From a virus: a DNA stretch of 64,000 nucleotides. The DNA is taken from positions 1 to 64,000 of the IMG/VR virus record IMGVR_UViG_3300005617_000007, one strand, 5' to 3'. Position 1 is the first letter of the stretch. Each line of letters opens with the position of its first letter. Position numbers and translations under genes: made by a program. The notes below the pieces were generated by a model. The model searched no databases. It was not told where the DNA came from and saw nothing but the letters and a program-made list of their open reading frames with translations. Positions 348 through 60,290 of the stretch are shown here, in pieces.

Positions 348-2765
348 ATGGCGGTACTGAAGAAGGTTAAGCACGATACAAAAAGTGCGGTGGAGTTCCT
401 TCAGAAGTGGAGCCCCGAGGGTCCATGGGTCCTCACCGCGATTATCCCGGACGGGAAAACCGAAACAATGACCTTTCCCGCGGCCAAGTGGACGGACGCT
501 GCCGCCTGGATCGAAGGTCATCAAGGCATCAAGAATCTGTACTTTCACGTCAATCCGGTTCGGAAGGCGTTGGATAATAAAGCCTCCAAGGAAGATATTG
601 CGCGATTGGCATGGCTCCACATCGACATTGACCCGCGCGCCGGGGAGGATTTCGCCGAGGAGCGGACCCGCGCGCTGAAGATGTTGAAGAACTTCAAGCC
701 GGCGCCAACGGTCATCATCGACTCGGGCGGTGGCTATCAGGGCTTTTGGAAACTCCAGCCAAGCGAACGCCTGGAAATCAACGGCGTGGTCGAGAAGGCT
801 CAGGAACTCGAAGCCTACAACATTCAGCTGGAGAAGCTATTCCAGGCGGACCATTGCCACAACGTAGACCGCATCATGCGGCTACCGGGCACCATTAACG
901 TTCCGACAGCGAAGAAGATCAAGAAAGGGCGCCAGCCTACATTGTCCACGCTTGTAGAATGGAACGATGCGGCGCTGTACACCATTGACCAGTTTATCCC
1001 GGCGCCGCGGGTTCAATCACGTGATCAAGGGCTCGCGAGCGGTCCGCCCAAAGTCAGAGTGACGGGCAATGTCGCTGATATCGGGACGGAGGAGCTGAAG
1101 GAGTGGGCCCAACAGAACGGCAAGGCGATCACGGACCATACCCTGGCGCTGATCGCGACCGGACAGGACCCGCTCGACCCGACGAAATACCAATCACGAT
1201 CTGAGGCGCTGTTCAGAGTCTGTTGCGACCTCGTGCGCGCCGAAGTTCCGCCGGAAATGATCTATGCGGTCATCACCGGATCGAATGAGATTGCGGTCAG
1301 TGTCCGCGATAAACCGGACCCAGAAGGCTATGCGCTGCGGCAGATCGAACGCGCGCTTGAAGAAGCCATCGACCCGATGCTGCGCAAACTGAACGAAAAG
1401 CATGCGGTCATTTCTGACATCGGCGGGAAGTGCCGAATTATCAGCGAGGTCATGGACCCTTCGCTACAGCGGACGAAGATCAGCAAGCAATCGTTTGAGG
1501 ACTTCCGCAACCGTTACCGCCACATCAAGGTGATTGTTGGGCGTACCGAAGCCGGCGCGCCGGTCGAGAAGGCCGCGGGAAACTTTTGGATTGATCACCC
1601 GAATCGCCGCCAGTTTGACACCATTGTTTTCTCGCCGGGTCGCGATGTTCCCGACGCTTACAACCTCTGGCGTGGATTCGCCTGCGATTCGCTCCCGGGC
1701 GATAAGCACAAGGGCTTCATGCAGCATCTATTCCTCAACGTCTGCTCGGGGAATCAGGAGCACTATGACTACCTGGTAGGCTGGATGGCTCGGACCGTTC
1801 AGCACCCGGACGGCCCGGGAGAGGTCGCCGTGGTGCTCCGCGGGAAGCGCGGAACCGGCAAGAGCTTCTTTGCCAAGAAGTTCGGGGCCTTGTTTGGGCG
1901 GCACTACCTTCAGGTGTCGGACTCGAAGCATTTGGTGGGCTCTTTCAACGCCCACCTCCGCGATACCGTCGTGCTGTTCGGTGATGAAGCCTTCTTCGCC
2001 GGAGACAAGAAACATGAATCAGTTCTGAAAACGCTGATCACGGAAGAACACCTGGTGATCGAAGGCAAGGGCGTAGACGCCGAGGCGGCGCCGAACTATA
2101 CGCACCTGATGCTCGCCTCGAACGAAAACTGGGTGGTGCCCGCCGGTCTCGATGAACGCCGCTTTTTCGTGATGGAAGTTGGCGAGGGGAAGAAACAGGA
2201 CCACAACTATTTCAAGAAATTGTCGTTGGAGCTGGATGAAGGCGGCTTCGAGAACCTGCTGCACTTCCTCCTGACCTATGACCTGAGCAAATACGAAGTC
2301 CGCGCCGTCCCCCAAACGAAGGCGTTGCAGGATCAGAAAATATTGAGCATGGACCCCGAAATTCAGTGGTTGTTCGAGAAGTTCTGGGAGGGTCGGATAT
2401 TGCGCGGCGACCAGGAGTGGCGGGAAAAGGTCATCAAAGATTTCCTGTATGACGACTACGTTATGGACCTCAAGGACCAGGGCCGCAACTTCCGTATGAG
2501 TCGGACCGGGTTTGGCAAATTCCTCCTCCGCGCGTTCCCGCCGGGCCATCCGGTCTCGAAACAGGAGACGGTTGAAGTGCCCTGGACGAATGACACCGGC
2601 TTCGAGGTACTGGTCAAGAAACGCATGTATGTGATCTATCTCCCGCCGGTTGATCTTTGCAGAGAACATTGGGACACTAACTTTGGTGGGCCGTTCGATT
2701 GGCCCAAGCTGGACGCGGTTCAAACGCAGTTGGTGCCCCCGGATGAGGAACCGATTCCATTTTGA
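348..2765 (+). CDS. Primase-helicase fusion (AEP-like N-terminus, DUF5906-type SF3 helicase)
   Basis: 805 aa from ATG 348; an upstream in-frame codon at 303 lies inside the preceding gene and was rejected. The N-terminal third has AEP primase features: HIDIDP at residues 91-96 (paired catalytic acids), an SGGGYQGFWK segment, and an RIMRLPGTIN segment. The C-terminal half is an AAA+/SF3 helicase: Walker A GKRGTGKS near residue 500, Walker B VVLFGDEAFF, sensor ASNEN, and arginine finger DERRFF. This layout is known from phage NrS-1-type primase-polymerases. It would prime and unwind phage DNA at the fork. Whether it also acts as the polymerase cannot be told from the sequence, but no classical polymerase is present in the window. 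Confidence 0.85.
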   Translation: MAVLKKVKHDTKSAVEFLQKWSPEGPWVLTAIIPDGKTETMTFPAAKWTDAAAWIEGHQGIKNLYFHVNPVRKALDNKASKEDIARLAWLHIDIDPRAGEDFAEERTRALKMLKNFKPAPTVIIDSGGGYQGFWKLQPSERLEINGVVEKAQELEAYNIQLEKLFQADHCHNVDRIMRLPGTINVPTAKKIKKGRQPTLSTLVEWNDAALYTIDQFIPAPRVQSRDQGLASGPPKVRVTGNVADIGTEELKEWAQQNGKAITDHTLALIATGQDPLDPTKYQSRSEALFRVCCDLVRAEVPPEMIYAVITGSNEIAVSVRDKPDPEGYALRQIERALEEAIDPMLRKLNEKHAVISDIGGKCRIISEVMDPSLQRTKISKQSFEDFRNRYRHIKVIVGRTEAGAPVEKAAGNFWIDHPNRRQFDTIVFSPGRDVPDAYNLWRGFACDSLPGDKHKGFMQHLFLNVCSGNQEHYDYLVGWMARTVQHPDGPGEVAVVLRGKRGTGKSFFAKKFGALFGRHYLQVSDSKHLVGSFNAHLRDTVVLFGDEAFFAGDKKHESVLKTLITEEHLVIEGKGVDAEAAPNYTHLMLASNENWVVPAGLDERRFFVMEVGEGKKQDHNYFKKLSLELDEGGFENLLHFLLTYDLSKYEVRAVPQTKALQDQKILSMDPEIQWLFEKFWEGRILRGDQEWREKVIKDFLYDDYVMDLKDQGRNFRMSRTGFGKFLLRAFPPGHPVSKQETVEVPWTNDTGFEVLVKKRMYVIYLPPVDLCREHWDTNFGGPFDWPKLDAVQTQLVPPDEEPIPF

Positions 2766-2974
2766 GCGAGACACTGGAAGCGACAAAGCGGGAGCTGGCT
2801 GAAGCCGGTATTGCGTACCGGGTCGAGAACGGGAAGCGGCACTATAAGGTCCGCTTCACGGTCTGTGGTAAGGCTTGCATGGTGACCTGTTCGCGCTCGG
2901 CGAGCGACCACCGCGCGATCTTGAACGCCCGCCTGCAAGTACGGCGCGAAATCCGAACGGCGATGAATCAATGA
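2762..2974 (+). CDS. Small basic protein, unknown function
   Basis: 70 aa. It starts at TTG 2762, overlapping the primase stop (TTGA), so translation is probably coupled. The body (ENGKRHYKVRF...CSRSASDHRAILNARLQVRREI) resembles many small phage proteins with a compact alpha/beta, HicA- or dsRBD-like pattern, but I see no defined active site. The basic C-terminus suggests nucleic-acid binding (inference). The gene ends just before a promoter. Confidence 0.55.
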   Translation: MSETLEATKRELAEAGIAYRVENGKRHYKVRFTVCGKACMVTCSRSASDHRAILNARLQVRREIRTAMNQ

Positions 2975-2981
2975 AAATTAC

Positions 2982-3011
2982 TTTACTTTTACGAACTCAC
3001 ACAACTATACT
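2982..3011 (+). promoter_or_regulatory. Phage early-type promoter P1 (TTTACT-N18-TATACT)
   Basis: -35-like TTTACT at 2982-2987 and -10-like TATACT at 3006-3011, spacer 18, within ACTTTACTTTT...CTATACTTT. It is the same extended motif as at least seven other intergenic sites in this window. It would fire just upstream of the small genes at 3027 and 3229 and the GHKL-like gene at 3445. Confidence 0.65.
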
Positions 3012-3026
3012 TTCCCGGCGGCGAAC

Positions 3027-3278
3027 ATGAGCCTGATTATGGAACAACGATACTCACTTGGACAGGAACTCACCCATCATGAATTGCGAGAAGCCTACAA
3101 AGCTATATTCCAACGCGACCTCCCGCGGGGCGCCAAATCGGCGGACGTTGCGCGCGGGCTCGCGGCGTCCTATGGCAACCGCTTTGAATTCGAGGTCAAC
3201 CGCCTCCGAGGTTATGCTTGGAATAATCATGAAGTGGTATCTCCTGATTCCGGTTGCAATCGTATGGATGGTATATAG
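3027..3278 (+). CDS. Small hypothetical protein
   Basis: 83 aa. ATG 3027 lies only about 9 nt after the predicted transcription start, so ATG 3042 (MEQRYSLGQEL...) may be the true start; neither has a strong Shine-Dalgarno. The sequence ELREAYKAIFQRDLPRGAKSADVARGLAASYGNRFEFEVNRLRG looks like a small helical domain of the DUF2924 type often found in phages (tentative). The 3' end overlaps the next gene by 50 nt in another frame. Confidence 0.5.
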   Translation: MSLIMEQRYSLGQELTHHELREAYKAIFQRDLPRGAKSADVARGLAASYGNRFEFEVNRLRGYAWNNHEVVSPDSGCNRMDGI

Positions 3279-3420
3279 CGCGATTGCCAGCTATTTCGAC
3301 CGCCCGACGGTGCTGCGCGATCCTTTGAGTGGTGATTGCGTTGAGATCGTCCAGCCCTCGGACCAGCATTACACCTGCGACAATCTTCCACCCAAGTACG
3401 TGTGCGCATACAAGTATTAA
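3229..3420 (+). CDS. Small membrane-anchored protein
   Basis: 63 aa from ATG 3229. It begins MKWYLLIPVAIVWMVYSAIASYF, one N-terminal hydrophobic segment, followed by a short polar tail with three cysteines (CVEIV, YTCDN, YVCAY). It is likely an inner-membrane or exported small protein, and the cysteines could form a disulfide in the periplasm (inference). The start lies inside the preceding reading frame, an arrangement seen repeatedly in this early region. Confidence 0.5.
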   Translation: MKWYLLIPVAIVWMVYSAIASYFDRPTVLRDPLSGDCVEIVQPSDQHYTCDNLPPKYVCAYKY

Positions 3421-3428
3421 CCACCAAC

Positions 3429-3440
3429 AGAAATGGAGCA
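3429..3440 (+). promoter_or_regulatory. Conserved leader/RBS motif AGAAATGGAGCA (copy 1)
   Basis: Exact copy of the recurrent 12-nt leader, four bases before ATG 3445. The GGAG core serves as Shine-Dalgarno. The internal ATG at 3433 is in frame with the gene but is part of the leader. Confidence 0.7.
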
Positions 3441-3444
3441 AACC

Positions 3445-4626
3445 ATGTCATATGTCGTATTCCGCAATAAGGGGGTCATTGACCCGCGGTCCATCACTAC
3501 CTTCGGCGCCAGCTCGAAGGAGAACAAGGGAGCCATTGGCTTTTTCGGAACCGGGCTGAAGTACGCCGTTGCAATCCTCCTCCGGGAAGGCTGTGAGATC
3601 AGCATTCTGTCGGGCAATAAGCGTCTCGACTTCGGGTCACGCAAAACCAAAATCCGGGTTGATTCCTTTGACTTGGTGACAATGAACAAGCGCGCTATCG
3701 GCTTCACCACCGAACTCGGCAAGACCTGGGAAGTTTGGCAAGCGATGCGCGAGCTGTATTGTAACATGCTCGACGAACGCGGCGAGGCCGTCGAGGTCGA
3801 GAACTTCCCCGAGCCTGACCCGGAATCCACGCAGATCATCGTTCGCGGGGAGAAGTTCACCGACGCCTGGGCCTCTCGCTCCGACATCATCCTGAGCACC
3901 GACGCGATTGAGAAAAATGAGTCAGTCCATATCCACCCGGGGCAATCGCAATATGTCTTTTACCGCGGGATCAGGGCCTATAAGCTCAACACTCCGTCGA
4001 GCTTTACCTACAACATTCAACGGAAGTGCGAGCTGACCGAAGATCGCACCCTGAAGTATTCCTGGGACGCTGATGCAGCGATCCGTAAAGGCTTCTGCGA
4101 ATCGAAAACGCCAGCCCTGATTCAGCGCGCGGTGACGGCGCCCAAACAGACCTATGAGAACACGATGACGTTCGAGGGCTGCTTGCCATCGAAGGAGTTC
4201 ATTGGGATCGTCCGGGACCTCGCGAACAAACGCGACATTCACCTCAACCGCAGCGCGCTCGAAGCGGTCCGTGTTTGGGCTTCGGACGAATTGCACGCCG
4301 GCCCGGCGCTTCAGCTTGATCCGGTAGAATCGGCGATGCTTCAGAAGGCGATCAACTTCAATATCGCGATGGGGTACGCCGTCAGTGATTACCCGATAGT
4401 TGTCACTGAATTCCTCGGCGAGGGCGTGTTGGGCCGCGCCGAGAATGGGACCATCTTTGTAAGCCGTCGAACGTTTATGATGGGGACGAAGATGCTTGCC
4501 GGAACCCTGGCGGAGGAGTATTTTCACCTCAAGTTCAACACCTACGATGAAACCCGCTCCTTCCAGAATTTCCTGGTTGACGCGATCATGACCCTGGGCG
4601 AAAAGCTACTTGGAGAACCGCTGTGA
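3445..4626 (+). CDS. GHKL-like ATPase with a C-terminal EExxH segment, unknown function
   Basis: 393 aa from ATG 3445. Near the N-terminus is a glycine-rich loop, GAIGFFGTGLKYAVAILL (G32-K39 core), resembling the G2 lid box of Hsp90/MutL-type GHKL ATPases. An N-box-like ELYCNMLDE (E103, N107, D110) follows. In ordinary GHKL proteins the N-box comes first, so this would be a permuted Bergerat-type fold. The C-terminus contains AEEYFHLKFN (E357, E358, H361), which could bind metal. Similar unassigned ATP-binding proteins occur in other tailed phages. The role is unknown; host-takeover or anti-defence functions are possible but not shown. Confidence 0.6.
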   Translation: MSYVVFRNKGVIDPRSITTFGASSKENKGAIGFFGTGLKYAVAILLREGCEISILSGNKRLDFGSRKTKIRVDSFDLVTMNKRAIGFTTELGKTWEVWQAMRELYCNMLDERGEAVEVENFPEPDPESTQIIVRGEKFTDAWASRSDIILSTDAIEKNESVHIHPGQSQYVFYRGIRAYKLNTPSSFTYNIQRKCELTEDRTLKYSWDADAAIRKGFCESKTPALIQRAVTAPKQTYENTMTFEGCLPSKEFIGIVRDLANKRDIHLNRSALEAVRVWASDELHAGPALQLDPVESAMLQKAINFNIAMGYAVSDYPIVVTEFLGEGVLGRAENGTIFVSRRTFMMGTKMLAGTLAEEYFHLKFNTYDETRSFQNFLVDAIMTLGEKLLGEPL

Positions 4627-4967
4627 CCATGAAACCAACTGTGAATCTCAACCCGGAGGCCGTCGCGATAGCGCGACAAATCCACGATGTGGCAAACAAC
4701 TTCCTTGTCGAGCGGAAGCGCATCCACGAGAAGGCGAACGAAGATTGCGAACGGCTCGGCGCCGACCGTCAAGCCGTTATGGGCGCGATGTTTGATCAGT
4801 TGTTCATTGCGCAGGGCCTTCCGCTTTCGCTGAAGGATCAGTATTCACTTGACATGAGTTATGCGGCTGATCACGGTCTCGCCTTCCTTCGCCCCATTGA
4901 GTTCGACCAACCGCAGGGCAGCTTCGACTTAGGCGAAATGCTCCGCAATCAACAAACCCAGCACTGA
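4623..4967 (+). CDS. Hypothetical protein
   Basis: 114 aa. GTG 4623 overlaps the previous stop and has GGAG seven bases upstream; ATG 4629 is the alternative. The N-terminal half is helical and charged (IHDVANNFLVERKRIHEKANEDCERL), compatible with a short coiled coil. No family recognised. It sits between the GHKL-like ATPase and a MazG-like enzyme in an apparent operon. Confidence 0.55.
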   Translation: MTMKPTVNLNPEAVAIARQIHDVANNFLVERKRIHEKANEDCERLGADRQAVMGAMFDQLFIAQGLPLSLKDQYSLDMSYAADHGLAFLRPIEFDQPQGSFDLGEMLRNQQTQH

Positions 4968-6100: not shown

Positions 6101-6843
6101 GAACCTGCGTTTGTCACGGCTTTAGGGCCCTGGGCGAAGCTGCCCCGGGCCTATGGGTTTGCCCCGAACACGGCAAGACCGGGCACGGTTCCTTTATGAC
6201 TCTGTTCACTGAGTATCGGGAACAGCTGGGATTTATCGACAAAGATTCATTCTGGGACCTCTGTCAAGGCGTCCTCGTGACTGAGCGCGTTCGCGCGAAA
6301 AACCAGGACCGGATTTATTTTGATGAGGACGATCTTTTCAAGGACGTGTCTCAGCATATCGAATCGCTCTCAGCGACGGCTTTGCCGTTGAAGCCGGTCC
6401 GGGTTAAAATGCCAGGACTTTTCGCTGGAGCGAATATCATGGCACTGGTTTATTTCTTGGTCAATCTCATCAGTCTGATTACGCTCGGGTTGTGGGCCCT
6501 GATTCCTGAACCCACCTCGCTGTTCTGGGTCGCCTCAATGATCGGCTCGGGAGCGTCAACGCTCTTTGCCCTCGTGCTGGAGCTACGCCGGCCCCGGCCT
6601 ATGATCCAGGGCATCGGGGATTCGCTGAGGGCGGTCTATCTGCCCAAGGACGTTCCCCCGGCGGGCGCTGAACAGCTTGTGGGCCGTCTGGTACTTTGGA
6701 CGGCGATGTTCAAGATTGATAAGGGTCCGCATAAAGGCGAATGGGCCATGCAGGCGGAGGACCCTCAGTTGCCGGTTTGGATACCCTTGACCGAATTAGT
6801 TGTACAAGAGCGTCGCCGGGGTTTACTTTTTAAGCGTTGGTAA
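6097..6843 (+). CDS. Membrane protein with N-terminal Cys/His cluster
   Basis: 248 aa from ATG 6097 (ATGA overlap). The first ~25 residues hold CVCHGF...VCPEH, a possible zinc-binding knuckle. After a soluble segment come two hydrophobic helices around residues 110-160 (IMALVYFLVNLISLITLGLW and LFWVASMIGSGASTLFALVL). The C-terminal ~85 residues are soluble. It is probably an inner-membrane protein with both ends in the cytoplasm (inference). No family recognised. Confidence 0.55.
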   Translation: MRTCVCHGFRALGEAAPGLWVCPEHGKTGHGSFMTLFTEYREQLGFIDKDSFWDLCQGVLVTERVRAKNQDRIYFDEDDLFKDVSQHIESLSATALPLKPVRVKMPGLFAGANIMALVYFLVNLISLITLGLWALIPEPTSLFWVASMIGSGASTLFALVLELRRPRPMIQGIGDSLRAVYLPKDVPPAGAEQLVGRLVLWTAMFKIDKGPHKGEWAMQAEDPQLPVWIPLTELVVQERRRGLLFKRW

Positions 6844-8143: not shown

Positions 8144-8869
8144 ATGGACTGGAAAACTTTGTTGCCGCAGTTGCTGCTGACTGTCGGTGTGATCTTCCTC
8201 GGGGCGTTCGCTCACGCTCTAAAAACCTACCTGCGGGGCGGCATCGACTCCCTGCGCGAGTATTGGGGGCCCAACAGCTGGCGTCCGACGCTTTGGACGC
8301 TGTTCACGATCTTCGGCGGCGCTATCGCGTCGGCGTTGAGCGGGGCGGTCAGTACGTCCTCGGCGGAAGGCTTGCTGGCCTTGTTCTTCATGGGATTTAC
8401 CATCAACAGTGCGGTCAACACGCCGTCCTCGCAGGTGAAAACCACGACGGGCGCACCGGGTACGCCGCTGGCGGCTATCCTCGGGGCTCTGCTTCTGGTT
8501 GGGCTATTCGTCCCGAGCGGGGCACAGGCTTCGACGCAAGTTGTACTTGATTGTCAAGCTCCAACTACGCGGACGGACAACAGCGTGTTTGCTGCAACCG
8601 AAATCGCGGGCTACACTTTCGGATACACGCAACCCGCAACGGTTCGCGTTCCGTTATTGCCCGCGGTTCAGGCGCCTCCTTGCCATAAGGTTGTACCGAT
8701 TGCAAAGGGTCAGTGCTTTAAGGCCGGGACGGTGTTTGACGTTACTGTTACCGACAATCAACTGATTCCGCTCACCTCGGACCCGGCGACGGCGACGCTG
8801 TCGGAGGATGTTTGTAACAACCTCCCCAAGCCGAACAAACCAACCAATGTTCTGATTTCCCACGATTGA
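8144..8869 (+). CDS. Multi-pass membrane protein with exported C-terminal domain
   Basis: 241 aa. Residues 1-95 contain about three hydrophobic helices (LLPQLLLTVGVIFLGAF; LWTLFTIFGGAIASALSGAV; GLLALFFMGFTINSAV), holin-like in spacing. A second hydrophobic segment ending VPSGAQAS at about residue 128 looks like an internal signal-peptide-like junction. The remaining ~110 residues are a beta-rich, cysteine-containing domain (four Cys) typical of periplasmic or surface modules. It is followed by a terminator, so it ends a transcription unit. Function unknown; lysis timing, superinfection exclusion or envelope modification are possible. Confidence 0.55.
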   Translation: MDWKTLLPQLLLTVGVIFLGAFAHALKTYLRGGIDSLREYWGPNSWRPTLWTLFTIFGGAIASALSGAVSTSSAEGLLALFFMGFTINSAVNTPSSQVKTTTGAPGTPLAAILGALLLVGLFVPSGAQASTQVVLDCQAPTTRTDNSVFAATEIAGYTFGYTQPATVRVPLLPAVQAPPCHKVVPIAKGQCFKAGTVFDVTVTDNQLIPLTSDPATATLSEDVCNNLPKPNKPTNVLISHD

Positions 8870-8973: not shown

Positions 8974-9228
8974 GTGTGCAACTGTATCGCTTATCCATTC
9001 CCGCACCGCTTTGGTGGCGGTAAATGTACAGGTCAACAGATCGCTGAAGCCTATTTCGAGAATCACGGCGGCTTCGGGTACTGTAAAGACTGTCACTGTT
9101 TTTCACGTGATCGCCGTTTCGGCGACATCTTTTGCGAAGTAGTCAACGGCCAGGAAACCCCGGAGCAATGCCCGGTGGTCCAGGAGCTTATTGCGTCGGA
9201 AGAAATCAAAATGAGGACCAAGAAATGA
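8974..9228 (+). CDS. Cys/His-rich putative zinc-binding protein
   Basis: 84 aa from GTG 8974, chosen because AAGGAG at 8963-8968 is ideally spaced; GTG 8947 is an in-frame alternative. It begins CNCIAYPFPHRFGGGKCTG and continues with YCKDCHCF, FCEV and QCPV, so at least eight cysteines could bind one or two zinc ions. The PFPHRFGGGKC signature recurs in short phage proteins of unknown role. It overlaps the exonuclease start by ATGA, suggesting coupled expression. Confidence 0.6.
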   Translation: MCNCIAYPFPHRFGGGKCTGQQIAEAYFENHGGFGYCKDCHCFSRDRRFGDIFCEVVNGQETPEQCPVVQELIASEEIKMRTKK

Positions 9229-9773
9229 GCGATGTGAACCTAACAGACGTCATGATTGACATCGAAACAATGGGTGTAAACCGCGACGCCGCAGTGATTC
9301 AGATCGGTGCGCTGGTATTCGACTGGCAGACCGGAATGATGCCCCCTGATATCTTCCGCGAGGACGTTGACCTGATGTCCTCGATTATGGCCGGCGGTGA
9401 AACGGATCGCCTGACGACGGCCTGGTGGCGCGAACAAGAAGGGCTCGACCAAATTGAGCCCAAGCAGATCGGCGTGGTGCTTCACGCGCTGAGCAACTGG
9501 CTCGGGCAGTACCCGACGATTGAACGTGTTTGGGCGAAGGGTCCAACCTTTGATCTGACCGTGCTCGAAGGCTACTATGACCGCCTGGGAATCAAGCGCC
9601 CCTGGCGTTACAATCAGCCGCGCGATACCCGGACGGTGATTGACCTCGCTCGGACTATCGGTGTTTGGGCGGAACCCGAAGGCGGGGACCCCAAGCATGA
9701 TGCGGCGGAGGATTGCCGGCGTCAATGTATCCAGTTGGTGAGCGCGCTGAACCATTTAAGAATTATTGGATAA
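9225..9773 (+). CDS. DEDDh 3'-5' exonuclease (Rv2179c/DexA-like)
   Basis: 182 aa from ATG 9225. Exo I is MIDIETMG (D12, E14), Exo II GPTFDLTVLEGYY, and Exo III HDAAEDCRRQ, so all four acids and the histidine of the DEDDh RNase T fold are present. A WWREQ segment and DTRT before Exo III match the small exonucleases grouped with T4 DexA and Rv2179c. It would remove 3' nucleotides from single-stranded DNA or RNA, in repair, host DNA degradation or RNA turnover. The length fits a stand-alone exonuclease, and no polymerase domain is attached. Confidence 0.85.
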   Translation: MSDVNLTDVMIDIETMGVNRDAAVIQIGALVFDWQTGMMPPDIFREDVDLMSSIMAGGETDRLTTAWWREQEGLDQIEPKQIGVVLHALSNWLGQYPTIERVWAKGPTFDLTVLEGYYDRLGIKRPWRYNQPRDTRTVIDLARTIGVWAEPEGGDPKHDAAEDCRRQCIQLVSALNHLRIIG

Positions 9774-9777
9774 CAAC

Positions 9778-9805
9778 TTTACTTTTCGAGCGGTCTCACT
9801 ATACT
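9778..9805 (+). promoter_or_regulatory. Phage early-type promoter P3 (TTTACT-N16-TATACT)
   Basis: TTTACT 9778-9783 and TATACT 9800-9805, spacer 16, in ACTTTACTTTTCGAG...CACTATACTTCT. It is followed by a variant of the leader (AGGAAATGGAT at 9820-9830) and ATG 9837. Confidence 0.75.
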
Positions 9806-9836
9806 TCTCGAACAGACTGAGGAAATGGATTAGATC

Positions 9837-10112
9837 ATGAAGGCTTTTGTTTTGCTAATGTTGCTCACCGGGATCGCGCACGCGGAGGACGCCTTCATGC
9901 CTCGCGTTATTCCGACGCGCTACTACACCCACCCGGTCGAGCCCGGCAAGGGTGATGTCATCGACGTAGCGCGCTGTAAGCTCGATGCGAAAACGGACGA
10001 AGCGCAACACGCCTGTTACAAGATTCTCCCCGGTGATGTCGGTGAGATGCTGTGGCGTGTTGACCGTGGCGAAATCCAGAAACCTATCGTCATTCACCTT
10101 TACCGATACTGA
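9837..10112 (+). CDS. Secreted small protein
   Basis: 91 aa. Clear Sec signal peptide MKAFVLLMLLTGIAHA with cleavage after AHA. The mature ~75 residues contain two cysteines (ARCKLD, HACYKI) that could form a periplasmic disulfide. First gene behind promoter P3 and therefore probably an early product acting in the envelope. No known family. It lies in a run with another envelope protein (10309). Confidence 0.6.
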   Translation: MKAFVLLMLLTGIAHAEDAFMPRVIPTRYYTHPVEPGKGDVIDVARCKLDAKTDEAQHACYKILPGDVGEMLWRVDRGEIQKPIVIHLYRY

Positions 10113-10124
10113 GGACCCTCAAGG

Positions 10125-10322
10125 ATGAACGCTGTACGCATAGTGGCCATAACTCCTCCGCTCGGGGATTATCTCAGCGGCGAGTTCAAGGCATTTTACG
10201 ATGGCGACCTGACCCAACGGGAGTTGGCGAAGATCGTACAAAACTGTTTCAATTTTCAAGAACGTCAGGGCCAAGCTCCCCATCGTTTCGATTACCCGGA
10301 GATACAACATGAAAGCGCGTAA
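10125..10322 (+). CDS. Hypothetical small protein
   Basis: 65 aa. Central segment FKAFYDGDLTQRELAKIVQNCFNFQERQGQ is helical and resembles a short HTH-like unit without being diagnostic. It overlaps the start of the PEP-CTERM protein by 14 nt. Function unknown. Confidence 0.5.
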   Translation: MNAVRIVAITPPLGDYLSGEFKAFYDGDLTQRELAKIVQNCFNFQERQGQAPHRFDYPEIQHESA

Positions 10323-10962
10323 CAATCTGTTCATCGGTGGGGCAACGGTTGCCGCCCTGCTCGCGATCCTCCTACTGTCCAAGTGCGCGGTCGATAGCTA
10401 CAAAGCCCAAGCAGAGGACCGGCTGCGACCCGTTGCCCCCGGCGGCTTGACAGCGGTCGAGGTCTCGCGTCACGGCGAGCCCGTCCCCTCGCTCGACGTA
10501 AAGCCGATGACCGCGGAGGAGCGCGCCCAGCGCCTCGCCTCGGAACGCATGTACAAAAAGTTAAACGACGATATGGCGAGCGGTCGCCGCGCGCCGAACA
10601 AGATGGGCGTCTATGAGAAGGAGGACCCGAGCGGCTGGACCGTCTATCAGGGTCCGCCACCGTTCGATCCAAAGCCTGAAGCCCAAGCAACGACATTCAC
10701 CCCCGAGGAGACCATGACGCCCTTCGACGAAGGAGTGATTGGGCAGGACATCGTTGTCACTCATAACGACATCGCGGGCTGGTTTCCTCCGAGCTATTAC
10801 GGTGGAGGCGGGGGCTATGTTGTCCAGACCTGTCCCGACTGTTGCGAGACCCTGCCAACGACACCCGGAACCGTCGCGAGCGTCCCGGAACCCTCAGCGA
10901 TCTATCTGTTGGGCTCAGGGCTTGTCGCTTTATTTTGGTCAAGACGCAAAAAGATTCATTAG
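10309..10962 (+). CDS. Envelope protein with C-terminal PEP-CTERM sorting signal
   Basis: 217 aa. A basic N-terminus and hydrophobic helix (residues ~7-25, LFIGGATVAALLAILLLSKC) target it to the membrane. The middle is proline- and acid-rich. The last 26 residues are a textbook PEP-CTERM signal: VPEPS (V192-S196), a transmembrane helix (IYLLGSGLVALFW) and a basic tail SRRKKIH. In bacteria such signals are recognised by exosortase (EpsH-type) for surface sorting with exopolysaccharide. A phage copy suggests a host with exosortase and a role at the cell surface, or mimicry of host sorted proteins. No catalytic domain is visible. Transcribed from P3. Confidence 0.7.
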   Translation: MKARNNLFIGGATVAALLAILLLSKCAVDSYKAQAEDRLRPVAPGGLTAVEVSRHGEPVPSLDVKPMTAEERAQRLASERMYKKLNDDMASGRRAPNKMGVYEKEDPSGWTVYQGPPPFDPKPEAQATTFTPEETMTPFDEGVIGQDIVVTHNDIAGWFPPSYYGGGGGYVVQTCPDCCETLPTTPGTVASVPEPSAIYLLGSGLVALFWSRRKKIH

Positions 10963-10967
10963 TTGAC

Positions 10968-10995
10968 TTTACTTTTCCGACGGCTCCACTATACT
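10968..10995 (+). promoter_or_regulatory. Phage early-type promoter P4 (TTTACT-N16-TATACT)
   Basis: TTTACT 10968-10973 and TATACT 10990-10995, spacer 16. The sequence around it (ACTTTACTTTTCCGACGG...CCACTATACTTCT) is nearly identical to P3. Leader copy at 11010-11021. Confidence 0.75.
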
Positions 10996-11009
10996 TCTTA
11001 TACAGATTA

Positions 11010-11021
11010 AGAAATGGAGCA
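11010..11021 (+). promoter_or_regulatory. Conserved leader/RBS motif AGAAATGGAGCA (copy 4)
   Basis: Exact copy downstream of P4. ATG 11027 has the standard spacing but opens only a 24-codon frame; the longer coding frame is shifted (see the ORF at 11035). Confidence 0.65.
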
Positions 11022-11034
11022 CGGAAATGAAAGT

Positions 11035-11145
11035 TTGGTTGCCCTGGTTATCGTTGCCGTTGGTGCGTGTCACTTCACCTCGGAAGCGTCGGGAAAGCTG
11101 AAGCAACAAGCGCAAGATCGCGCGGAGCTTCTGGCGAACATCTAA
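11035..11145 (+). CDS. Very small lipoprotein-like ORF, start uncertain
   Basis: 36 aa from TTG 11035. The frame is open from ATG 11014 inside the leader. It reads VALVIVAVGAC followed by a polar helix (GKLKQQAQDRAELLANI), which looks like a signal peptide with a lipobox-like VGAC. The ATG with correct leader spacing (11027) is in a different frame and stops after 24 codons. Either the gene uses TTG or a single-base change separates an MK start from the lipoprotein frame. Low confidence. Confidence 0.35.
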   Translation: MVALVIVAVGACHFTSEASGKLKQQAQDRAELLANI

Positions 11146-13363: not shown

Positions 13364-13470
13364 GCTACGTTGCTTACACCATCATCGGTCTCCTGGTCCT
13401 CGAACAGGTCCTGGATTTCGCTATCGTCTACGTGTCAATGCGCCAGCTGCGCCGGGGGCCTTTCCTGTGA
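13360..13470 (+). CDS. Very small single-pass membrane protein
   Basis: 36 aa. ATG 13360 overlaps the previous stop (ATGA), and its own stop overlaps the next GTG start (GTGA), so it is embedded in a coupled chain of genes. Nearly all of it is one hydrophobic helix (VAYTIIGLLVLEQVLDFAIVY) followed by a basic tail (RQLRRG), predicting an inner-membrane peptide with a cytoplasmic C-terminus. Confidence 0.5.
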   Translation: MSYVAYTIIGLLVLEQVLDFAIVYVSMRQLRRGPFL

Positions 13471-14075
13471 GCAAACGCGATCTGTTCGACCGCGGAGTGA
13501 TCCGCATAACCAAATTCTGCGAAGCCAATAACCTGATCGTGCCCGAGGTCCGCGTGAGCACGCCGGATGAATGGCGGATACCCGGTCACTGTGCGTATTA
13601 TCGCCCAACATACATAGCAATCTGCCTCGAACGCTGTGCGCATATCGGAACCGGCGGGGCGTCCTGGTCCTATCCGGGGTACACCGTGGACCGCGAGCCC
13701 TACGGCGTCCTGGCGCATGAGATCGGGCACCACGTCGATGTCGTGTTGGGCAATGTAAAGAACGGCAACGCCTATAATTCCGAATTCAGCAAGAACATTC
13801 GCAAAGCCTCGGGCGAGGAAAAGCTGACGAACTACTGCCCAAACGACGGCGAATGGTTCGCTGAAATGATGCGCCTCTTTATAACCAACCCCGATCTGCT
13901 CCGGCTAACTCGCCCAATCACGTTCCGCGAGCTATCGAAGTGGCTCAAGCCGGTCGAGACACGGCCCTATGACGAGGTGCTGATTAAGGCCCCGGCACGG
14001 ACCTTTGAAGCGGTTCATAAGAAGATACTGAAGGCGGAAGCCGCCGCGGAGAAAGCCCATGCGCCGGCCCGTTGA
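13467..14075 (+). CDS. Zincin-like metallopeptidase
   Basis: 202 aa from GTG 13467 (GTGA overlap). Contains VLAHEIGHHVD, an HEXXH motif with H84, E85 and H88. Downstream NDGEWFAEMMRLFITNPDLL supplies a glutamate helix that could give the third zinc ligand, as in gluzincins. No signal peptide, so it acts in the cytoplasm. It may cleave a host or phage protein; the substrate is unknown. The C-terminal 30 residues are helical and alanine-rich. It overlaps the next gene by 17 nt. Confidence 0.7.
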   Translation: MSKRDLFDRGVIRITKFCEANNLIVPEVRVSTPDEWRIPGHCAYYRPTYIAICLERCAHIGTGGASWSYPGYTVDREPYGVLAHEIGHHVDVVLGNVKNGNAYNSEFSKNIRKASGEEKLTNYCPNDGEWFAEMMRLFITNPDLLRLTRPITFRELSKWLKPVETRPYDEVLIKAPARTFEAVHKKILKAEAAAEKAHAPAR

Positions 14076-18806: not shown

Positions 18807-20630
18807 ATGAGCACCATCGGCTATTCCAAAACAGAAGTATTGCGCCTTTTGGCTTTGAAGAACTCAGGCACCCAGATTTTCAATACAGTTGATACTTATG
18901 TTGTCGATGGTGTTAATTACAAATACGATGTCACCAACAATATCCTGACTCCAATTAGCTCGGACCAAGCCGCCATCGGCCTATCCAATCACAACCGTAG
19001 TCATGGCCTTCTCGGCCAGCTGGGTTCGACCAATCGTTGGGTTATTGTTATTGCTGGTCAATCGAACGGAGAAGGCAATGGTATTATGCCGGCCAATTTG
19101 CCGCTTTCGATTCCCGGTTGTATGATGCTCGCGAAAGATAATGTCTACCGCAACCTCACCGAACCATCCCACAATCGGTACGCGGGCGCGGTAGACAACT
19201 GGACGCCGAACGCGGGAAACCCAGCCAACGCGCGCTACTCATTGGCGTTAGATTTAGCAAATTGGCTCAAGCGTCTCACCGGGGCTGATGTTTTGATCCT
19301 TCCGTGTGCGGTCGGTTCCACTTTCATTCCGGGATGGCTGCAGAACGCTTATGATGACCCGCCGGTGCTCACTTCTTTGTTTGGGCAGATGCGCGACCGC
19401 GTGAACTTGGCATGTCAGGGCGATTTCTCTCGCTTGATTATCCTTCACCACGGTCATGAAGGGGAAACCGGCGGGACGGCTCAGACTCGGGCTACAAATT
19501 ATGTATCTTTGATTTCAGCCTATCGTTATTGGTTTGGTAACGTGCCTGTCATCATTCCACAGTTGGCTCCCCATACTGATCCCGCTGTTACTCTCGCTTT
19601 AGCGATTGGAGCAGATAGCCAGCGCCAGCTTGACCAAGATTACGGAGACAGTTCTGTTATTGCTTCGGCGTTCGGTACTTCGTCGTGGAAAACAATTAAC
19701 AACGGACTCACAGCAGCGGCACCGGAGTGGTATATCAGCGGAAATACAGCAACCTCAAATTTCACGAGCATTGCTGGCGGCGTTCGCATGACGACGTTAG
19801 GCGGAGACGGTAATGGGCTTGCTCTTACGCACGATTATGTAATTGGTCGCGCATACAAGATAAGTTTCAGGGCGAATTGTACGGTTGGGGCGTTTAAGAT
19901 CGCTTTGAACTTGGTCAACCCAGCTTCTGGATGGACGCTTGACGGAGTAGCCCAAGCAACGCAATCGAGCGGCTTGACCGGCGATCACTTATATGAATTT
20001 ACCTTTGTCGCAACCGCAGGAACTTCATTTGCTATACAACGCAACGCGGGAGGTACAACCACAACTTGTGATTTCACGCAAATGGTGATTCAAGAAGCCT
20101 CGACCGCGAAAACGTCAAAGGTGTTTGTATACCCGACGTGGGATGTGGCTATGAACGGTTCGACCGATGGTTACCACCTAGCTACTGCTGGTCAGAAGGA
20201 GAATGGACGCCGTGCCGCTCTGGTGATTGCGAATCGGATCATGGGGTTGCCTAACCTTCGGGTCATCGACGGTAGTGGAAACAACGTGCCTCATGTCGGC
20301 CATCCTCACTTAACCAGTGCCCGGAACGTTTCGGGAAGTACAACTGTCGTGAGTTGTTTCTTCAACCAAGTCCTTGCAAACAAAGGCGCTGATAACTTGT
20401 GGTTGGTTGAAGTTGCGGGGGTTGCCCAAACGATTAGCTCTGTTGTCATAAATGCGGACACGACGCGGGTTGATATTACCCTGTCGGCGCCGATTACCGC
20501 CGGAAGCGCGACGGTAAGCTATGCTGCAATGCAGGAGAACTCGGATGGCTCCGCATTTACAAACTTCCTTCGCAATGCGGAAGGTTTGCCGCCGGTGCGG
20601 TTTTATCGGTATCCTGTAGCCGCTGCTTAA
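18807..20630 (+). CDS. Sialate O-acetylesterase-like (SASA/SGNH) virion-associated protein
   Basis: 607 aa. VIVIAGQSNGEGNG (catalytic S86 in GQSN) is the signature of SASA/SGNH carbohydrate esterases. STDGYHLATAGQ supplies the D454/H457 pair. Between them, residues ~295-430 form a beta-rich insert like a lectin/CBM jelly roll. The last ~110 residues (VPHVGHPHLTSARNV...SATVSYAAMQEN) look like a fibronectin/Ig-type module. The N-terminal ~65 residues may be the virion anchor. It probably removes O-acetyl groups from capsule or O-antigen during adsorption. Position between terminase and portal is unusual, and its AT-richer codons suggest separate acquisition. Confidence 0.75.
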   Translation: MSTIGYSKTEVLRLLALKNSGTQIFNTVDTYVVDGVNYKYDVTNNILTPISSDQAAIGLSNHNRSHGLLGQLGSTNRWVIVIAGQSNGEGNGIMPANLPLSIPGCMMLAKDNVYRNLTEPSHNRYAGAVDNWTPNAGNPANARYSLALDLANWLKRLTGADVLILPCAVGSTFIPGWLQNAYDDPPVLTSLFGQMRDRVNLACQGDFSRLIILHHGHEGETGGTAQTRATNYVSLISAYRYWFGNVPVIIPQLAPHTDPAVTLALAIGADSQRQLDQDYGDSSVIASAFGTSSWKTINNGLTAAAPEWYISGNTATSNFTSIAGGVRMTTLGGDGNGLALTHDYVIGRAYKISFRANCTVGAFKIALNLVNPASGWTLDGVAQATQSSGLTGDHLYEFTFVATAGTSFAIQRNAGGTTTTCDFTQMVIQEASTAKTSKVFVYPTWDVAMNGSTDGYHLATAGQKENGRRAALVIANRIMGLPNLRVIDGSGNNVPHVGHPHLTSARNVSGSTTVVSCFFNQVLANKGADNLWLVEVAGVAQTISSVVINADTTRVDITLSAPITAGSATVSYAAMQENSDGSAFTNFLRNAEGLPPVRFYRYPVAAA

Positions 20631-56853: not shown

Positions 56854-57165
56854 ATGACCATAGTCAAAATGAGCGGCGCCCGAGTCGCCGAATTACAACG
56901 CCTGGAACAAGCCGTGCGGATGGCGCGAGAGGAGTTAGAGAAATACACGGAGGCCAGCTTGGTTGAATCCCCGGCGAAGCCCGGGGACATTGTCGAAATC
57001 ACCGGCTATTCGTATCGCGGAAGCAGTATGCAAGTTGTGCGCATAGCCTTAATCAGCGAGGGCCGCGGGCAATTCCACTGGCGCGCAACCGGGTTTGTGC
57101 TCAAGAAAGACGGCACCCCGGGCCTGAATCACGCCGAGACCTATTGGGAGATTGAACCGTGCTAG
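56854..57165 (+). CDS. Hypothetical protein in hypermodification operon
   Basis: 103 aa from ATG 56854 with AAGGAA upstream. A helical N-terminal third (SGARVAELQRLEQAVRMAREELEKYTE) is followed by a compact domain (PGDIVEITGYSYRGSSMQVVRIALISEGRGQFHWRATGFVLKKDG). It may be an SH3-like fold. Overlaps the PLP enzyme by 7 nt, suggesting coupled expression. Function unknown. Confidence 0.55.
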   Translation: MTIVKMSGARVAELQRLEQAVRMAREELEKYTEASLVESPAKPGDIVEITGYSYRGSSMQVVRIALISEGRGQFHWRATGFVLKKDGTPGLNHAETYWEIEPC

Positions 57166-58007
57166 TCAACAATACTCCGCTGGAGACCTACCAGCTCAAC
57201 GGCATTCCGATCCTCGTCAAGCGCGAGGACCTTTGCGCCCCGTTCCCGGGGCCGTCCTTCAGTAAGATGCGAGGGGTGGTTGCTCATATCGAAGCGCGAG
57301 ACGAAAAGTTTATTGGCGTGCTCGACACATTCCACTCCAAGGCCGGTTGGTGCGTGAGCTACGTCTGTCAGCAGCTCGGGAAGGTCGCCGTGAACTTCTG
57401 GCCGCGCTATAAAGCGGACCCCGCTGAGGGCTTCCCGAGGAAGCAGCAACAGTATGCCCACGGCTTCGGCGCCCAGATGGTAACGCTACAGGCCGGGCGT
57501 TCCTCCGTCCTGTTCCACCAAGCGAAGAAACAATTGGCCGCGGGTTGGTCCGATTCCTACCTGATGCCCAACGCGCTGAAGCTCCCCGAGTCGATCACCG
57601 AAAACGCCGTGGAAGCTGAACGGACGTGTCTGTTGGGCAATATCCCGCTGACCGGAATTCTGGTGCTCAGTATCAGTTCGGGGACCGTCGCCGCGGGCGT
57701 CCTGAAGGGCTTCCATTATGCCGGTTTCCTGAAGAATTATCAGGTCATACTCCACATGGGTTATTCGCGGAGCGAGGAGGCCACCCGGAAATATATTGAA
57801 AGTTGTGTTGGTTTCCCGCTCGGGCCTAACATTCAATTCGTTGACGAAGGCTACGGCTACGCCGACGCCGCGCGCGACATTGATGTGCCCTTCCCATGTA
57901 ACAAGTTCTATGACGCGAAGGCGTGGAAGTTCCTCAGCAAGCCCGAAGTCCTGGCCGGCCTGGTAGCGACCGGAAAGCCAATAGTTTTCTGGAATATCGG
58001 CGATTAA
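57159..58007 (+). CDS. Fold-type II PLP enzyme of the hypermodification pathway
   Basis: 282 aa from GTG 57159. VKREDLCAPFPGPSFSKMRGVVAHIEAR has the lysine (K36) in the position of the PLP Schiff-base lysine of ACC deaminase/cysteine-desulfhydrase-like enzymes. FHSKAGWCVSYVCQQLG corresponds to their GG.QSN segment, and LSISSGTVAAGVLKG to the phosphate-binding loop. In M6-like pathways a PLP enzyme decarboxylates the amino acid already attached to the thymine; that role is inferred from the neighbours. Length is slightly short for the family. Confidence 0.75.
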   Translation: MLVNNTPLETYQLNGIPILVKREDLCAPFPGPSFSKMRGVVAHIEARDEKFIGVLDTFHSKAGWCVSYVCQQLGKVAVNFWPRYKADPAEGFPRKQQQYAHGFGAQMVTLQAGRSSVLFHQAKKQLAAGWSDSYLMPNALKLPESITENAVEAERTCLLGNIPLTGILVLSISSGTVAAGVLKGFHYAGFLKNYQVILHMGYSRSEEATRKYIESCVGFPLGPNIQFVDEGYGYADAARDIDVPFPCNKFYDAKAWKFLSKPEVLAGLVATGKPIVFWNIGD

Positions 58008-58023
58008 ATCCAAGTAATAATAG

Positions 58024-58053
58024 TTTACTTCTCGCCCCGTCCTGGAGTAGACT
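58024..58053 (+). promoter_or_regulatory. Phage early-type promoter P8 (TTTACT-N18-TAGACT)
   Basis: TTTACT 58024-58029 and TAGACT 58048-58053, spacer 18. Followed by AGGAGA and a TTG start at 58080, so here the leader motif is replaced by an ordinary Shine-Dalgarno. Confidence 0.6.
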
Positions 58054-58079
58054 TTTTCTCATTCATAGGAGATACCCCC

Positions 58080-59528
58080 TTGCAATCCGAATCTGACCAC
58101 ACCGAATGGCTCAAAGGCGATACTGGTGAACAAGCCCAGGAAGCCTACAATTATTTCATGCGTCCCGATCCTAACCAGCGGGAATTCCTCGGACCAATTG
58201 AAGAGGAATTCGATGAGCTGACCGGGATGACGGCGCGTTTCCGTCTCGCCAAAGTGGGTATGATCCGCAACGCTCCCGTCGAGTCGATGCGTGAGGTCAA
58301 GGTGTATTTGGGTTTCAATGACAAGACCTACGTGCCGCACCTTCGGATACCGAACGCGAAGCCGTTGCAGGGTTGGTATCAGGACCGGGATAACAACAAG
58401 CAGGGCTCGCGCCCGCGCCCTTGTTTCTCCGAAGCGATCCTGACGGAACCCTATGGCGGCTATTGTACCGTGGGTTGCGCCTTCTGCTACGTCAACAGCG
58501 GCTTCCGCGGTTATCGGGGCTCAGGTTTGATAAGTGTCCCGTTGAACTATGGCGATCAGGTACGGAAGATGCTGAGCAAGACCCGCGCTTCAGCTGCCGG
58601 CTATTTCAGCAGCTTCACTGACCCCTTCCTCCCGATTGAGGACGTTTACCATAACACCCAGCGCGGCGCCGAGGCGTTCACTGACTTGGGCCTCCCGGTG
58701 TTCTTTCTCAGCCGTCTGTCCTATCCGGGTTGGGCGTTCGATCTGCTGAAAAAGAATCGCTACAGCTACGCCCAGAAATCGTTGAACACCGGCAATCCCG
58801 AGGACTGGCAAAAGTTGAGCCCTGGGGCGATTAGTCTTGATGCCCACCTCGAAGAAGTCCGCGAGCTTCGCCGCCAGGGCATCTATACCTCGATTCAGTG
58901 CAATCCAGTAGTGCCTGGGATCGTAACCCATGACGATATTCGTTGCCTGTTTGAAAAGCTCGCCGCGGTCGGTAACAACCACGTCATCGTCAAATTCGTT
59001 GAAGCCGGCTATTCATGGGCTCCGGCGATGACCGAACGCCTGACAAAGCGGTTCGGGCCGGCGCGGGCGAAAGCCTTTCAAGACTTGTTCACGGAGAACC
59101 AGGCCGGTGCCCAACGCACCATCGTCGAATCGTACCGGCTCGAAGCCCATGCGCTGTACCAGAAGTGGGCGACCGAATTGGGTATGACCTATGCGACCTG
59201 TTATGAGTATCGTCGCGGGAAGCCCGGGACCTCCGAACCTAAATGGTTGTCTGTTGGGCGCGAATACACCACGGCGGATCAGTGCCACGGCCAGAAGGTT
59301 CCGATGTACACCCGGGACAAGGTCGCTGATCTATTCGAGGAAGTCGCCGAGTGCGCGCCGTCGGGTTGTCTCCACTGCGGCGACGAAACCGAAGGAAAAG
59401 GCGCTTGCGGTTCCGAGATATTCGGCGTGGCCAAGGCCCTCCGTTCACCGGACTACAAGCACAAGATCGAACGCGCCCCGGTTGTTCAGGAGCCGGCTCA
59501 GTTCATCGAAATAAAACAAATAGATTAA
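58080..59528 (+). CDS. Radical SAM enzyme of the hypermodification pathway
   Basis: 482 aa from TTG 58080 with AGGAGA upstream. The CTVGCAFC motif (C129, C133, C136) is the canonical CX3CX2C for the [4Fe-4S] cluster. SPL-like downstream segments (GYFSSFTDPFLPIEDVYHNTQRGAEAF, VFFLSRLS, IQCNPVVPGIV) form the TIM barrel. A C-terminal cluster CAPSGCLHCGDETEGKGAC may bind an auxiliary cluster. In phage M6 a radical SAM isomerase rearranges glycine-derived side chains to C-C-linked groups; the same role is proposed here. Confidence 0.85.
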   Translation: MQSESDHTEWLKGDTGEQAQEAYNYFMRPDPNQREFLGPIEEEFDELTGMTARFRLAKVGMIRNAPVESMREVKVYLGFNDKTYVPHLRIPNAKPLQGWYQDRDNNKQGSRPRPCFSEAILTEPYGGYCTVGCAFCYVNSGFRGYRGSGLISVPLNYGDQVRKMLSKTRASAAGYFSSFTDPFLPIEDVYHNTQRGAEAFTDLGLPVFFLSRLSYPGWAFDLLKKNRYSYAQKSLNTGNPEDWQKLSPGAISLDAHLEEVRELRRQGIYTSIQCNPVVPGIVTHDDIRCLFEKLAAVGNNHVIVKFVEAGYSWAPAMTERLTKRFGPARAKAFQDLFTENQAGAQRTIVESYRLEAHALYQKWATELGMTYATCYEYRRGKPGTSEPKWLSVGREYTTADQCHGQKVPMYTRDKVADLFEEVAECAPSGCLHCGDETEGKGACGSEIFGVAKALRSPDYKHKIERAPVVQEPAQFIEIKQID

Positions 59529-59552
59529 GCAACACCCGAAAAGGAGCACGAC

Positions 59553-60290
59553 ATGAAATTCATAAACATCCGGGGCTGTAATGGCTCCGGCAAAACAACT
59601 CTCCTCCGCTCGCTCGCGACCGATCCGCTATGCCAGGTTCAGTCTATCGTCATGCCCGCGCATGATTGTCGCATACCCGTCACCTATATTCCAAACGGGC
59701 TCGCAATTATTGGTGACTACACCCGCGCGGCGGCGGGCGCGACCACAGCTGGTTGCGACCGGATAAAAACTCAACAAGCCGCCAAAGACATTTTGGAATT
59801 CGTCGCGCGCGATCCGCAGGTGGATTTCATTCTATTCGAGGGCGTTGTAGTAAGCACTATCTATGGCCCTTGGCGCGATTGGTCGCGTGCCAACGGAGGC
59901 ATGGCCTGGGCGTTCCTCGACACTCCGCTGGAGATATGCTTGGGCCGGATTCAGGAGCGTAACGGCGGCAAGCCTATCAAAGAGGATCAGGTGGCCGATA
60001 AGCACCGCACGATAGCGCGAGTACGAGACAAAGCTATGTTTGATGGCGAGGCTGTTTGCGATCTTCATTGGCAGACGGCTTTGCGTGATATCAAAGCGTT
60101 GATAAATTTTATGCGTCACCCTATTGACCCAGAGGTGCGAAACCACCACAAATCAGTTCTCCCTGATAGTCCATGGGTCACTGAGTACCCGGCGCCCCTT
60201 CAGAAAAGTTCGATTCAGAATACAACATGCTGCGACAAGCCCAACATCAGTCCTCGGGGCGTCTGTATCTCCTGTGGAGCACCGCAATGA
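59553..60290 (+). CDS. P-loop kinase, predicted 5-hydroxymethyl-dU DNA kinase
   Basis: 245 aa. GCNGSGKTT (residues 8-16) is a clear Walker A. ILFEGVVVSTIYGPWRDWS resembles a Walker B/acidic strand, and LDTPLEICLGRIQERNGGKPIKEDQV a lid region. The C-terminus carries TCCDKPNISPRGVCISCG, a Cys4 zinc knuckle. It lies between the radical SAM gene and an aGPT gene, so it fits the hmdU DNA kinase that phosphorylates the hydroxymethyl group before displacement. GAAAAGGAGCAC before the start is a variant of the common leader. Confidence 0.75.
   Translation: MKFINIRGCNGSGKTTLLRSLATDPLCQVQSIVMPAHDCRIPVTYIPNGLAIIGDYTRAAAGATTAGCDRIKTQQAAKDILEFVARDPQVDFILFEGVVVSTIYGPWRDWSRANGGMAWAFLDTPLEICLGRIQERNGGKPIKEDQVADKHRTIARVRDKAMFDGEAVCDLHWQTALRDIKALINFMRHPIDPEVRNHHKSVLPDSPWVTEYPAPLQKSSIQNTTCCDKPNISPRGVCISCGAPQ

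Follow-up and report, generated by a model that had tools for sequence, protein, structure and literature searches.

Many environmental bacteria mark proteins for the cell surface and the biofilm matrix with a PEP-CTERM tag, and exosortase sorting is linked to the formation of flocs and biofilms in such bacteria. Haft et al. (2006) defined PEP-CTERM proteins, the substrates of this pathway, by a tail at the C-terminus with no extra hydrophobic segment, and reported signal peptides in 97% of them (PMC1569441). In the same study basic residues were scarce in these proteins, Cys made up about 0.4% and Ser/Thr/Asn were raised, and a lack of homology outside the tail is typical of the class (PMC1569441). 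The exosortase (EpsH, TIGR02602) was proposed to act on the outer side of the inner membrane (PMC1569441). No study of phage-encoded PEP-CTERM proteins or substrates was found in the part of the literature that was covered.

The gene described here was found in a window of 64,000 nucleotides, positions 1 to 64,000 of the 67,064-bp IMG/VR virus record IMGVR_UViG_3300005617_000007. Judged by TerL and the syntenic early genes, the virus is a tailed phage of the Mesyanzhinovviridae (YuA-like). Its TerL is about 75.6% identical to those of Pseudomonas YuA-like phages and 75.8% identical to that of Sphaerotilus phage SN1 (Mesyanzhinovviridae, Yuavirus), and its primase is up to 80% identical to IMG/VR relatives. 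With the Yuavirus/Vojvodinavirus phages of this family (YuA, SN1, FP1) it shares a TerL identity of ~75%, and its genes to the left and right of the cassette discussed below are ordered as in these phages. The GC content is 56%, against 63-66% in the relatives measured. A search for the host via TerL in GTDB genomes was set aside, its 4 matches all lying in metagenome bins (Chthonomonas, Microbacteriaceae and Anaerolinea titles) that resemble misbinning. Positions 57159-60290, which encode a PLP-type enzyme (57159), a radical-SAM-like protein (58080, recognised by eye) and a 5-hmdU DNA kinase (59553, PF18748, E 3.6e-18), look like a thymidine DNA hypermodification cassette, of the kind described for YuA/M6-type phages. 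Right after the terminase, 18807-20630 carries a SASA-type carbohydrate esterase domain (PF03629, E 5.3e-10), and its product may be a surface-polysaccharide deacetylase.

A preliminary description of this DNA had proposed a PEP-CTERM protein at 10309-10962, and these coordinates proved exact (plus strand, 217 aa). Its ATG start is preceded by a GGAG site at a distance of 8 nt, and the C-terminal sequence of the product is VPEPSAIYLLGSGLVALFWSRRKKIH. The protein opens with MKARNN and closes with CPDCCETLPTTPGTVAS-VPEPS-AIYLLGSGLVALFWS-RRKKIH. VPEPS (aa 192-196) is followed by a short hydrophobic transmembrane helix (aa 197-211) and by RRKK, which ends 2 residues short of the C-terminus, so that the whole domain occupies 10882-10959 on the plus strand. 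Searches with both published models bear out the proposed sorting signal, with 24.0 bits for TIGR02595 (curated cut-off 16) and 23.4 bits for PF07589 (curated cut-off 20.7). The match ends at aa 215 of 217, in line with the distance from the C-terminus of no more than about 10 residues that marks the class, and in a six-frame search it was the only one in the virus record (28.1 bits, E 3.4e-7). A home-made profile built from 29 tails on other viral contigs scored the protein at 26.8 bits, with the next ORF of the window at 6.4, the best shuffled ORF at 9.4 (n=23,284) and the best reversed ORF at 7.2. Since this score lies far above those of the shuffled ORFs, a chance match is excluded as the origin of the tail.

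Other assignments were tried and rejected. An LPXTG sorting signal scored 10 bits, under the model cut-off, and the named PEP-CTERM families (PepA, FxDxF, THxN, NF038129 and others) matched the tail only, at 12-23 bits against cut-offs of 50-125. In the case of the floc-forming PepA (NF033554), the C-terminal 26 residues alone match, at 21.5 bits against a cut-off of 80, and the protein is not a member of that family. The whole protein had no homologue in INPHARED (E up to 10), IMG/VR or PHROGs, and an exact-peptide scan of 84,980 GTDB species genomes found no bacterial relative.

The tail had been called a textbook PEP-CTERM domain, and this holds for the tail itself, but not for the N-terminal helix, which seems to have no usable signal-peptidase site, nor for the composition of the body. 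The N-terminal hydrophobic helix was placed by hydropathy at aa 7-24 (10327-10380, plus strand), and an AF2 model of low overall confidence has a helix at 5-38. Counted from the end of the hydrophobic core, the nearest A-x-A comes 13 residues later, with K, D and K in between. By the same measure, a crude home-made heuristic and not SignalP, 99 comparison proteins gave a median distance of 0, with 9 or more in 3 of them. The helix is therefore probably an uncleaved signal anchor. The predicted periplasmic segment (aa 25-191; 10381-10881, plus strand) is rich in Pro and charged residues, and direct reading finds in it YYGGGGGY (aa 163-170) and CPDCC (aa 175-179). The AF2 model, made without relatives (pLDDT 48.6), shows a helix at either end, a short one in the centre and a small hairpin; the remainder is unstructured, and most of the periplasmic segment is disordered. 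A hydropathy scan detected no transmembrane segment between the N-terminal helix and the tail, as the class definition has it. By the positive-inside rule, both ends of this two-helix protein would be cytoplasmic and the middle periplasmic, with the PEP motif on the outer side of the inner membrane.

Lys and Arg together make up 9.1% of the body, compared with a mean of 1.8% in the bodies of the comparison proteins and 10.4% in this phage's own proteins; a value as high was seen in 3/110 comparison proteins, those of contigs L139, L135 and L034. Cys stands at 1.8-2.4%, and Ser+Thr+Asn is low (15.2%). The few basic residues, very low Cys and raised Ser/Thr/Asn towards which the class tends, a tendency and not a requirement, are thus not seen here. 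In comparison with known exosortase substrates, the protein shares the VPEP motif, the short helix, the terminal basic cluster, the lack of an internal transmembrane segment and the lack of homology beyond the tail, whereas it differs in being phage-encoded, in its uncleaved-looking helix and in a body rich in Lys/Arg and Cys and poor in Ser/Asn. It is of atypical build for the class. Whether the protein is freely exported to the surface is doubtful, because it seems to have no usable signal-peptidase site and has a body unlike that of PEP-CTERM substrates.

The gene is the last of a small cassette. Its left boundary is a conserved Rv2179c-like 3'-5' exonuclease (9228-9773, plus strand; PF16473, E 2.7e-31), syntenic in SN1, FP1, L022 and L079. 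This is followed on the same strand by a promoter-like repeat, TTTACTTTTC-N-CACTATACTTCT (9778-9808, an exact match to the shared pattern), by genes for a small predicted secreted protein (9837-10112, 91 aa) and a small predicted cytosolic protein (10125-10322, 65 aa), by the PEP-CTERM gene, whose start the latter overlaps by 14 nt, and by a second copy of the repeat (10968-10998, same pattern), which closes the cassette and begins the next unit. The promoter that had been postulated (P3) is accordingly present as a repeated sequence: the two copies are near-identical, the pattern occurs 2 times in the window against 0 expected from shuffles, and there is a third, related copy at 6822. The PEP-CTERM gene may be expressed early, as was also suggested before. 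The secreted partner is likewise upheld, in that the 91-aa protein of the same cassette has a plausibly cleavable signal peptide (site IAHA|ED). It had no relatives in the collections searched, PHROGs among them, and NF046088 (EppA) was rejected as its identity, the weak match covering the signal region only and falling far under the cut-off. The 65-aa protein had no match in PHROGs, Pfam or NCBIfam.

For most genes before ~9.77 kb, and for several from 12.7 kb onwards, SN1, FP1 and several IMG/VR relatives have counterparts, but none was found in these phages for the genes in between. The region differs in every relative examined, and the genes directly after the exonuclease in SN1 and FP1 are unrelated to those of the cassette and not of such a membrane type. 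With conserved flanks and an interior that lacks counterparts, the cassette is an accessory insertion of this lineage. The PEP-CTERM tail was absent from the YuA-like relatives examined; this result comes from the home-made profile and not from TIGR02595, which matched none of 25 relatives but also missed its positive control. GC3 of the PEP-CTERM gene (0.71) falls among the values of the core genes of this phage (0.67-0.75), so the gene looks resident rather than fresh debris.

Several neighbouring genes were also noted. Just after the repeat at 10968, 11014-11145 is a possible tiny lipoprotein-like ORF (VIVAVGAC-HFTSE), which may be spurious, as its ATG overlaps sequence that is non-coding at the other promoter copies. 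The 241-aa product of 8144-8869, upstream in the same region, had no match; it has several hydrophobic helices and an extracytoplasmic C-terminal part that contains Cys, and is possibly another envelope protein. A zincin-like protein (LAHEIGHHVD) is encoded at 13431-14075, with a sub-threshold match to PF07737 (17.3 bits, cut-off 27.4), and in Bordetella phage FP1 this variable region includes a gene annotated as SprT-like.

The preliminary description had named no established role for the tail in phages; that the tail is foreign to phages does not hold. A motif scan found the PEP-CTERM motif on at least 120 IMG/VR contigs, and the scans combined gave at least 119 ORFs in which the tail is in frame and close to the stop codon. 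Part of these contigs may derive from host genomes or from the flanks of prophages. Several are clearly phage, the gene standing with a portal and a major head protein (L030/L072), with a portal and TerL (L050/L068) or with TerL (L061). On L034 it directly follows a primase that shares 46% identity with the window primase over 783 positions; its 180-aa product (L034:672-1214), which begins at the primase end, has the tail and no N-terminal signal. The 228-kb IMG/VR contig L135 has two PEP-CTERM genes (2509-4835) and, nearby, a TROVE/Ro60-like gene (domain recognised by eye), and the first of the two proteins carries YFRGGGGY ahead of VPEPS, a Gly-rich stretch comparable to the YYGGGGGY of the window protein. 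These phage proteins, L139 included, resemble the window protein in the tail, and L034, L135 and L139 also in their high Lys/Arg. The relationship is limited to the tail and a few preceding residues, and most of the others differ in having ordinary, cleavable signal peptides. A tblastn search of INPHARED with a 32-aa consensus tail found nothing, which is a weak test, as short hydrophobic queries are hard for BLAST. The window protein is not singular, but one of a recurring and apparently undescribed group of phage-borne PEP-CTERM proteins.

No exosortase was found in this virus record, nor in any of 36 other PEP-CTERM-bearing viral records tested (0/36), so the pathway would have to be that of the host. 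The reading tentatively preferred, with somewhat less than even confidence, is that of a lineage-specific, moron-type gene for an inner-membrane cargo protein, the tail of which interacts with the exosortase of the host and changes the envelope of the infected cell. The N-terminal helix would insert with its N-terminus in the cytoplasm and about 165 residues would be placed in the periplasm, so that the PEP motif would come to lie where the inner membrane borders the periplasm, before the short helix and the cytoplasmic RRKK. There the host exosortase would cut or transfer the protein. After a cut at PEP the C-terminal end would be loose and the protein would still be held in the membrane by its N-terminal helix, an outcome unlike surface release. 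As this helix is probably uncleaved, the product would likely stay tied to the inner membrane, near the exosortase/EPS machinery, and this location suggests an envelope role. The secreted protein at 9837, under the same promoter, might join in modifying the envelope. Superinfection exclusion is the commonest known benefit of accessory phage membrane proteins, and would be the most likely benefit to the phage here. The preliminary description had offered exclusion and matrix interference as ideas. Its observation is confirmed and its interpretation is partly supported, dependence on exosortase and a part in exclusion being inferences.

It is also conceivable, if rather unlikely, that this is a plain two-helix inner-membrane phage protein, for instance one of superinfection exclusion that is anchored at both ends, with a tail that resembles or descends from PEP-CTERM and goes unprocessed, the exosortase being missing or indifferent. 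In a host without exosortase, the tail would simply be a second anchor. The uncleaved look of the N-terminal helix, the phage-like Lys/Arg content and the body unlike that of PEP-CTERM substrates fit such a protein, and the relatives infect Pseudomonas aeruginosa and Bordetella, genera that are not known for exosortases. A precedent for inner-membrane exclusion is SieA of P22 (PMC10883804), the likeness being one of architecture (an inner-membrane protein from a non-structural accessory gene), with no sequence relationship claimed. Set against this are a tail that scores well over the curated cut-offs and has its motif, helix and basic cluster correctly ordered and C-terminally spaced, and the lack of any similar ORF in the relatives examined, which would fit a host-specific need.

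The lack of a homologue in sequenced relatives could indicate a host gene acquired by chance and without function for the phage, and PEP-CTERM genes are among the fastest-turning-over in their hosts (PMC1569441). This origin is nevertheless improbable in view of the intact frame, the phage-like GC3, the compact promoter-bounded operon and the overlap with the preceding gene; the body is unlike that of host PEP-CTERM proteins, and the scan of bacterial genomes returned no relative. Still less credence is given to an exosortase decoy, in which a substrate tied to the membrane by its other end occupies or jams the host enzyme during infection and blocks PEP-CTERM sorting and EPS export, loosening the matrix or surface. 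An above-cut-off tail joined to an N-terminal anchor of uncleavable look, and a body unlike that of exported substrates, would suit this design, but the prediction of N-terminal cleavage is crude, and the ordinary signal peptides of most other phage PEP-CTERM proteins do not conform to it.

Beyond the preferred reading of an inner-membrane cargo protein lies a broader proposition, which at present seems quite doubtful: phages of exosortase-bearing hosts would exploit the PEP-CTERM/exosortase pathway, and a doubly anchored substrate would tie up or redirect the exosortase, changing the surface or matrix. If phages routinely carry such proteins and use the host enzyme, the pathway would be a point of phage action on the matrix. 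The tail would then also be a mark for host prediction, as a phage that carries it should infect an exosortase-positive Gram-negative host.
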